The notes beneath the pieces were generated by a model. The model worked only from the letters and a program-made list of their open reading frames with translations, did not search any database and had not been told where the DNA came from. The position numbers and the translations under genes are program-made. DNA of 64,000 nt. Origin: Trypanosoma brucei gambiense DAL972. Taxonomy: Eukaryota > Euglenozoa > Kinetoplastea > Trypanosomatida > Trypanosomatidae. Shown here piece by piece: positions 8,232 to 10,069 of this stretch. How positions within the stretch are numbered: position 1 is the stretch's first letter; every line of letters begins with the position of its first letter. The stretch lies in NCBI RefSeq assembly GCF_000210295.1, contig NC_026743.1, forward strand, positions 310,001 through 374,000. The letters are read 5' to 3'.

Positions 8232-9436
8232 TATCGAAATTTACTGCGGTGTGCTGAATAGGTACAATTTTAGTCTGATTCAAGTATCGCAACTAAAGTG
8301 AGTACCTACTTGTTTCGCACCTTCTGTTATAAACAATACGCCGGTCTTCCAGTTTTTCTTTCTTGAAACAAAAACTTACCTTGTAGAGAACTGTTCGTCT
8401 CCAGTTCGCCTTCCTTATACACAAAGACGGGTAAACTCTTCTCAATAGTAAATCGGGTTAACAAAGCCCCTTCACGTCATAAATGAGAAACAAAAAAAAG
8501 AAGATGGTAAGACACAAATAAAACCGACAACATGGTGAGCAAATAAAGAAAGACAATAATTCTCAGCACCGTGACCAATTATAATACTGTTCAAGAGGTC
8601 ATATTATTGAAAAATATGTGGGCTGTGATGCAGTAAAGGTAACTGCAGCACTCTCCCAACAAGGGTTTCTAAAGACTACATCGCCATGAACCCGTAATTG
8701 CTCACAACAGCAGAGGAACACATATATATTATCTCAAAAATAAGGAAATATCAAAATATGGCAAAAAAACATTTAAAACCCTCTAGAAAATTGTTTAGAA
8801 AAAGATAGAGAGAGAAAGGGAGCTATCATCGTCGAGCACACAAAGCAACGACAACACTTCACACACGATGGTGGTATATTGCCTCGGAGAGATGCAAACG
8901 GAGCTTGAAGTAGGAATTATATGCACCGTTGGAATTAGTCTCACCCACTCGTAAGCATCCTCATGACTCATCCATCCTCAACTCCTCAAGTGAGGCACAA
9001 CACCACCGACCAGGACTCACAGGGCAAAAAAGCAAGTGATTGACAAGCAACTGTTACCAGTACACCACCATCAACCACCGAGGTCGACACACATTACAGG
9101 AACAACGGTAATGTTATCCATCGCTTCGTTCATCGCTACGCTCCATGTGTTACACGGGAAAGAACTCTCCTCTCTTCTCATACCGGTTTCTTTATTAGCT
9201 ATTCTTTACATCCTTTTCCCATTCATTCATCCCTTATGCTCACATATCTTCCCCAAGTATGATCATTGTGAAACAAGCGTAGGGGAAATAACAAAACAAG
9301 CACAAGGCACAAGAGCTACCTGCTTACACAGGTAACATTAAATAGGGAGGAAGCATGGGAAAGAACAAATTTACGTACGGGTAATTGCACCACAGAACCC
9401 CGTTGCCTCCCACCATCAGCACATCAGCGACCGCAC
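8232..9436. other. Intergenic stretch between HGPRT copy 1 and HGXPRT
   Basis: The right part (8865-9436) is the copied HGPRT 3' region, nearly identical to 29874-30445. The left part (8232-8864) is unique and holds the HGXPRT splice signal. A + strand frame of 99 codons (9036-9335) is duplicated with the repeat; it runs antisense to transcription and I do not call it. Confidence 0.7.
8470..8505 (-). promoter_or_regulatory. Predicted trans-splice acceptor of HGXPRT
   Basis: A T-rich tract on the minus strand (8484-8505, with eight consecutive T) is followed by AG at 8470. A closer, weaker candidate lies near 8370. Confidence 0.4.
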
Positions 9437-10069
9437 TTACCGCTTGGCTTCTCCAGCGGCCTTCCTCCGCTCAAGTTCCTTTCCCCATGTTTCATACACG
9501 CTCGGTTTTAGGATTACAACATCACGCACCTCACGGTATGATTGGTCGTAATCCAACCCGTAGCCAACCACGAACACATTAGGAACATCTGCCACAACGT
9601 ATTCCGCAGTGAAAGGTATTTTACGCCCACCGGGTTTGTCGATAGCCACGAGGGTTTTAATGCTCGCGGGTTCGCTCTTTTTCAAGCTGTCCACCACTTC
9701 CCTCAATGTCAGCGCAGTATCAAGTATATCCTCCAAAACAAGGACATGTTTTCCGCGGATGTCACAAAGACCGTCAGCCTTCACGTCAACTCGACCACAA
9801 CTTTTAGTATCGTGACCATATGACGAGGCCCGCAGGAATTCCACACGTGTGGGGACGCCAAAATCACCAAGAATGCGAACCATGTCAGCAGTGAAGACGA
9901 AGCTGCCTCTCAATACAGACACAATTACCAGAGGATTTTCAAGTGGTTTCAAATTGCAGTTGCTGTAGTCATCGGCAATACGCTGCGCCACACCGCGCAT
10001 GCGAGTGTGTAGTTCTGCCTCTGTAAAGAGGACACTCGTTGCGAAGTCGTATTTGCAAGCTGGTTCCAT
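9437..10069 (-). CDS. HGPRT: Hypoxanthine-guanine phosphoribosyltransferase, copy 1, no PTS1 (probably cytosolic)
   Basis: A 210-residue purine salvage enzyme converting hypoxanthine or guanine plus PRPP to IMP or GMP. The PRPP motif is [12 protein letters not shown] (111-122), with Ala119 where many HGPRTs have Gly; I recall a similar substitution in other trypanosomatid enzymes. The purine-contact loop is IDKPGGR (143-149), and the early loop is SVLRGSF (51-57). The C-terminus is GEAKR, which is not a PTS1 because the last residue is Arg. The almost identical copy at 30446-31078 ends VKAKL. This copy should therefore stay in the cytosol while the other enters glycosomes. The start ATG at 10067-10069 is the first after the predicted splice acceptor at 10219. 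Confidence 0.95.

Follow-up and report, generated by a model that had tools for sequence, protein, structure and literature searches.

Background

The question raised by this locus is how two HGPRT genes of Trypanosoma brucei gambiense DAL972 can be nearly identical along a duplicated unit and at the same time differ in the few codons that set the compartment of the product. Both genes lie in the window, i.e., the whole stretch of 64,000 nucleotides that was analysed (contig NC_026743.1, positions 310,001 to 374,000); window coordinates are used below, and the features are collected in Table 1.

PTS1 proteins are taken into glycosomes via PEX5. The gene pair as such and its two-compartment split are already published, since 2018 (PMC5843355). 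That paper names the T. brucei genes HGPRT-I (Tb927.10.1400) and HGPRT-II (Tb927.10.1470), gives their nucleotide identity as 98% and lists protein differences at residues 49, 54, 206, 207 and 210, with the tails GEAKR and VKAKL, respectively. In T. b. brucei bloodstream cells with N-terminal V5 tags, it reports HGPRT-I as cytosolic and both HGPRT-II and HGXPRT as glycosomal (PMC5843355); the split is restated in a 2023 review (PMC10208901). An earlier note on this DNA, made from the letters alone, had proposed that one enzyme is divided between cytosol and glycosome; the published localisation supports this for T. b. brucei, where the two proteins were found in different compartments and not in the same one (PMC5843355). 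Both of two T. brucei HGPRT paralogues are called glycosome-targeted in PMC7237986; we take these two to be HGPRT-II and HGXPRT.

Table 1. Coordinates of the features discussed (window positions)
Feature	Position	Strand	Remarks
HGXPRT	7527..8231	-	234 aa, ends SKL; counterpart of Tb927.10.1390; adjoins copy 1
Duplicated unit, copy 1 (HGPRT-I locus)	8865..10312	-	ungapped match to 29874-31321; 12 mismatches
Divergence island, copy 1	9436..9453	-	holds 8 of the 12 differences; spans codons 206-210, the stop and the base after it
HGPRT-I coding sequence	9437..10069	-	210 aa, ends GEAKR; counterpart of Tb927.10.1400; Pfam PF00156
HGPRT-I codon 54	9908..9910	-	AGA (Arg); Lys in PDB HGPRT-I sequences
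HGPRT-I codon 49	9923..9925	-	ATT (Ile)
Polypyrimidine-rich stretch and following AG	10219..10307	-	upstream of HGPRT-I, inside the shared unit; found by eye; possible trans-splice signals
Duplicated unit, copy 2 (HGPRT-II locus)	29874..31321	-	21009 bp from copy 1, same orientation
Divergence island, copy 2	30445..30462	-	encodes the PTS1 tail
HGPRT-II coding sequence	30446..31078	-	210 aa, ends VKAKL (PTS1 AKL); counterpart of Tb927.10.1470; Pfam PF00156
HGPRT-II codon 54	30917..30919	-	AGA (Arg), as in P0002 (TREU927 HGPRT-II)
HGPRT-II codon 49	30932..30934	-	ATT (Ile); P0002 has Val

Results

Extent and likeness of the duplicated unit

Shifted by 21009 bp, the units 8865-10312 and 29874-31321 align over 1448 bp with no gaps; the earlier note was right about this extent and about the 12 differences. 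In copy 1 the mismatches fall at 9053, 9121, 9364, 9436, 9441, 9443, 9446, 9449, 9451, 9452, 9453 and 9707; outside the unit, identity collapses at both edges. Copy 1 consists of 243 bp upstream, the coding sequence and 572 bp downstream. The Pribosyltran domain (PF00156) scores 83.0 bits in both HGPRT copies against a cut-off of 26.3, and with copy 2 as the query, phmmer matched residues 1-209 at near identity to the solved T. brucei HGPRTs 8ts4 and 5jsq. When the first HGPRT was searched in six frames against the genome (22,148,088 bp, 11 contigs), three matches came up, namely the two HGPRT genes and HGXPRT.

The two proteins differ only at residues 206, 207 and 210. In the rest of the coding region a single silent change was expected from the earlier reading of the letters, and it is indeed there (codon 121, ACA/ACG). 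Outside the tail the units differ at 4 of 1430 sites: 3 of 814 noncoding and 1 of 616 coding (Fisher p 0.64), with 1 of 205 third positions changed. Since the noncoding part is as alike as the coding part, the identity of the units is not owed to protein constraint; judged from the sequence, this equal likeness points to homogenisation or recency. The same counts contradict the proposal that these are old duplicates without conversion, the body being held by purifying selection and the tail drifting; HGPRT is a conserved enzyme family, which would suit such a proposal, but we give it practically no credence.

As a separate observation, the downstream 571 bp of the unit (8865-9435 and 29874-30444) hold only 3 differences, although the two products differ in detection: in bloodstream forms HGPRT-II, which is detected in procyclic forms, was reported undetectable, HGPRT-I not so (PMC5843355). 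Protein stability, or sequence beyond the shared part, may account for this difference.

The tail island

Eight of the 12 differences fall within 18 bp: seven of them change codons 206-210, and the eighth is at the first base past the stop. From copy 1 to copy 2, GGA becomes GTG (Gly to Val), GAA becomes AAG (Glu to Lys), GCC becomes GCA and AAG becomes AAA (Ala and Lys, both silent), and CGG becomes CTG (Arg to Leu); the stop codon is TAA in both. The alignment thus confirms the eight differences previously counted in 9436-9453 against 30445-30462, and the codon readout confirms GEAKR in one copy and VKAKL, a PTS1, in the other; the field that had been marked, 9436-9454, holds the cluster, but position 9454 itself does not differ. 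Under the strict PTS1 pattern S/A/C-K/R/H-L/M, the AKL of copy 2 fits and the AKR of copy 1 does not.

Such clustering had been said not to be expected from random divergence, and this is borne out: in 2,000,000 uniform placements of 12 changes no stretch of 18 bp received more than 6, a count reached in 6 runs, and the union bound for at least 8 of 12 changes in 18 bp is 6.5e-11. Within the tail, four of five third positions and three of ten first and second positions differ, plus the post-stop base. Over third-position and noncoding sites together, 5 of 6 differ in the tail against 4 of 1019 elsewhere (p 8e-11). Because silent and post-stop changes are included, selection for three altered residues is not by itself a sufficient account of the patch. 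On this comparison of the two sequences, it is either older than the rest of the unit or arrived in one event.

The edges of the island are sharp: no difference occurs in the adjoining 71 bp on one side and 253 bp on the other. Such edges would also suit a mechanical cold spot, where conversion tracts rarely cover the tail and selection is not involved, and heterology itself can block strand exchange. However, the island overlies the compartment-determining codons and goes together with a published functional difference (PMC5843355), and we consider the cold spot extremely unlikely.

Possible arrival of the tail in one event

The duplication could instead be recent, with the tail of one copy changed by a single complex event (a template switch or a microhomology patch is meant) or by conversion from a third gene, and then kept by selection for two compartments. 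The few differences in the body are what a young duplicate would show, the tail was replaced with no change in length and with the stop retained, and within this window a recent duplication followed by one multi-base tail event would look the same as conversion that spares the tail.

A third-gene donor is disfavoured by a search for the 18-bp tracts at no more than two mismatches, which gave 5 and 2 matches against 5 and 1 for reversed-pattern controls. One match per tract is the gene itself, and all the others have two mismatches. This search covered the 22.1 Mb of ordered contigs, with about 10 Mb of unplaced DAL972 contigs lying outside it (32.6 vs 22.1 Mb, PMC2854126), and it bears on templated changes only. 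Around C4:226868 and C9:829084, which are two of the five matches other than the genes themselves, no listed open reading frame of at least 80 aa ends in AKL or SKL, and both were rejected as tail donors. Against recency itself stands T. b. brucei, which has the same tails and two more differences in the body (PMC5843355), so that the duplication predates the split of these lineages. We therefore regard a recent duplication with a single tail event as unlikely. Of the two origins offered in the earlier note, homogenisation that spares the tail is the better supported; for the other, a short converted tract, no donor rose above the controls in 22.1 Mb.

Tails in related species

To place the older state of the tail, we used 17 HGPRT-like sequences outside T. 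brucei, several of them unnamed environmental ones, taken from the best 120 of 5153 and the best 120 of 7613 matches; P0126, P0128, P0130, P0132 and P0133, listed nearby, were left out of this set. Among the matches listed, 12 of the 17 have a strict PTS1 ending, for example, T. vivax (SHL), T. grayi (SKL), T. melophagium (SKL), Neobodo (SKL) and Phytomonas EM1 (SRL). The five without it are T. congolense (EKA), Angomonas (HQS), Phytomonas Hart1 (SHI), an unnamed sequence (PKL) and a partial T. theileri record. A targeting signal in most kinetoplastid HGPRTs, and synteny of HGPRT-XPRT pairs, are also reported in PMC9512073; taken together with our count, this makes glycosomal targeting of HGPRT probably ancestral. 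Yet it is the displaced copy that carries the PTS1, while the one beside HGXPRT, in what is presumed to be the ancestral position, does not; we infer this ordering.

The T. congolense tail, SEEKA, has E207 and K209 in common with GEAKR and only K209 in common with VKAKL. We rejected tail orthology with T. congolense as a marker, the shared residues being too few to place the duplication before that split. As the T. congolense sequence (P0003) is without PTS1, the signal may have been lost on more than one occasion.

Residues 49 and 54

The pair in T. b. brucei is the same as ours in its GEAKR and VKAKL tails and in its neighbour HGXPRT, Tb927.10.1390 (PMC5843355). It differs in that the paralogues reported there are also distinct at residues 49 and 54, whereas both window copies, the cytosolic-tailed one included, are I49/R54. 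The copy with the cytosolic tail thus bears, in its active site, the residue of the glycosomal type. The other T. brucei forms compared are HGPRT-I with I49/K54 (PDB; in two of these sequences the alignment extends into the tail, where it shows GEAK) and HGPRT-II with V49/R54 and VKAKL (P0002 from TREU927, the representative of 5 sequences in a protein database clustered at 90%). Window copy 2 differs from P0002 at residue 49 only. With three protein forms compared, the paralogues are thus identical at both residues in the window and different in published T. b. brucei. I49/R54 in both copies was not found in print among titles and abstract starts on HGPRT.

The PPi-loop Lys (VLKG), which is usual but not defining for HGPRT, is absent from both window copies because of Arg54. 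All 17 other HGPRT-like sequences and HGXPRT have Lys at this position, and Arg54 is therefore probably derived. It is no bar to membership of the family, since HGPRT-II carrying Arg54 is active (PMC5843355). Arg54 has been proposed to slow PRib-PP binding or product release (PMC5843355); K54 sits at the dimer interface, bonded to Q176 (PMC5081515). Lower turnover and lower Km are published for HGPRT-II. The kcat for guanine is given as 0.38 per s for HGPRT-I in PMC5843355, but PMC5081515, where the strain of the crystallised enzyme is unnamed, has 23.8 per s for the K54 form, TbrHGPRT. With the turnover of the K54 form some 60-fold apart between two papers, Arg54 can be linked to low turnover only weakly, and a kinetic consequence of Arg54 is only a proposal.

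In the PDB the same position is Arg in 1p17, which is close to T. cruzi HGPRT, and Lys in 1p19; we presume that both are T. cruzi proteins, with 1p17 an engineered mutant. The sequence of 1p19 is that of 1tc2, called T. cruzi in PMC5843355.

The I49/R54 shared by the window copies suggests, at the level of sequence, homogenisation within this lineage with the tail spared. The shortest history for residue 54, drawn from three protein forms, would have Arg54 arise first in the type-II copy; Val49 would have come later, in the type-II copy of T. b. brucei. In the lineage of the window, the cytosolic gene would have received an Arg54 type-II-like body by conversion, minus its tail. Opposite tails are retained in both lineages. 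That HGPRT-I of T. b. gambiense was overwritten by a glycosomal-type Arg54 body, its tail being spared, and that a kinetic trait moved in this way between compartments, is a suggestion we make only tentatively.

An artefact of assembly would be another source of such a pattern: mixed reads could falsely equalise the bodies, I49/R54 included, or create the tail cluster. The repeat, at 1448 bp, is longer than a single capillary read. DAL972 is moreover an 8-fold capillary draft ordered against TREU927 (PMC2854126). Nevertheless, the same tails are reported for Tb927.10.1400 and Tb927.10.1470 in T. b. brucei, and VKAKL is present in TREU927 P0002, which makes the artefact that the earlier note had allowed for unlikely as a source of the cluster. 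Codon 54 and the tail lie 402 and 571 bp, respectively, from unique flank, which is within the usual length of a capillary read. I49/R54 could be a mix of the other two forms only if these were joined between codons 49 and 54. We consider an artefact, in either of its versions, very unlikely.

Neighbourhood of the two loci

Nine minus-strand open reading frames of at least 150 aa lie from 7527 to 30446. This fits the T. b. brucei gene numbers 1390 to 1470 in tens, the numbers between 1390, 1400 and 1470 being interpolated. Between the HGPRT copies, an open reading frame of 2398 aa (18611-25807) contains 12 tandem repeats of 237 bp (79 aa) at 21511-24351, with 99% matches; such near-identical repeats argue that homogenisation is also at work between the two loci. 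An open reading frame of 245 aa at 15046-15783 has the domain DUF4833 (PF16117; 52.9 bits vs a cut-off of 23.1).

The second unit holds the same polypyrimidine-rich stretch and AG as the first (Table 1), close to the upstream end and still within the shared sequence. Putative trans-splice signals may therefore have been part of what was copied.

Discussion

We believe that the unit is probably homogenised by gene conversion and that conversions overwriting the tail are selected against; the mechanism is our reading of one genome. The two genes would be one HGPRT body with different C-terminal addresses: the PTS1 AKL would send HGPRT-II to glycosomes by PEX5-type import, and HGPRT-I, whose AKR is not a PTS1, would stay cytosolic. 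Ectopic gene conversion between loci 21 kb apart would keep the unit nearly identical, while conversions that copy one tail over the other would mislocalise an isoform and be removed by selection. The outcome would be a sharp 18-bp island of old divergence, which holds silent and post-stop changes together with the three amino-acid changes.

One pattern expected of conversion with selection is present here: silent and noncoding divergence is low, and the peak is narrow and stands at a functional target. A divergence peak at a small selected target is also the published expectation under conversion (PMC3924837). Long tracts of homozygosity, of a kind that would fit mitotic gene conversion, have been described in group 1 of T. 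b. gambiense and vary most on chromosome 10 (PMC4739771); these tracts are allelic, not ectopic, and are therefore only circumstantial for the HGPRT genes.

Comparable systems are known. PGK-B and PGK-C of T. brucei are likewise cytosolic and glycosomal isoforms with a largely shared body (PMC1855330, PMC7729029), and gene conversion between T. brucei PGK genes has been invoked in print (PMC1855330). In the present genome the two differ at 8 positions in the last 720 coding bases of PGK-B vs 50 in the first 540, and they separate at the 20-residue targeting extension of PGK-C, which ends SSL. Unlike the HGPRT pair, the PGK genes are in tandem, and their signal is an extension and not a substituted tail. 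In exon 5 of the human red and green opsin genes, which are duplicates about 24 kb apart and homogenised elsewhere, divergence peaks at functional sites (PMC3924837); there, however, the function is spectral tuning and not targeting, the peak is on the scale of an exon, and the evidence comes from several primates. The 18-bp HGPRT island is far narrower. Islands of divergence under conversion are also reported for copepod GOT1 (PMC3728101). As isoforms of a purine PRT split between cytosol and glycosome, T. brucei APRT1 and APRT2 resemble the HGPRT pair, but the signal in APRT2 is a PTS2 and activity is displayed only by APRT1 (PMC9512073).

Conclusions

Overall, conversion with a spared tail is the likely explanation. 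The part worth checking is the Arg54 common to both window copies. It has a practical side: the PDB HGPRT structures found carry Lys54, while the DAL972 assembly has Arg54 in both copies; HGPRT-II was not crystallised, according to PMC5843355. If Arg54 causes the lower turnover and Km of HGPRT-II, cytosolic salvage of hypoxanthine and guanine in T. b. gambiense might depend on a slower enzyme than in T. b. brucei. The HGPRT pair offers a compact natural case of one enzyme in two compartments, by way of a tail that conversion appears not to erase, and the pattern suggests how exchange between two genes may spare a small functional target.
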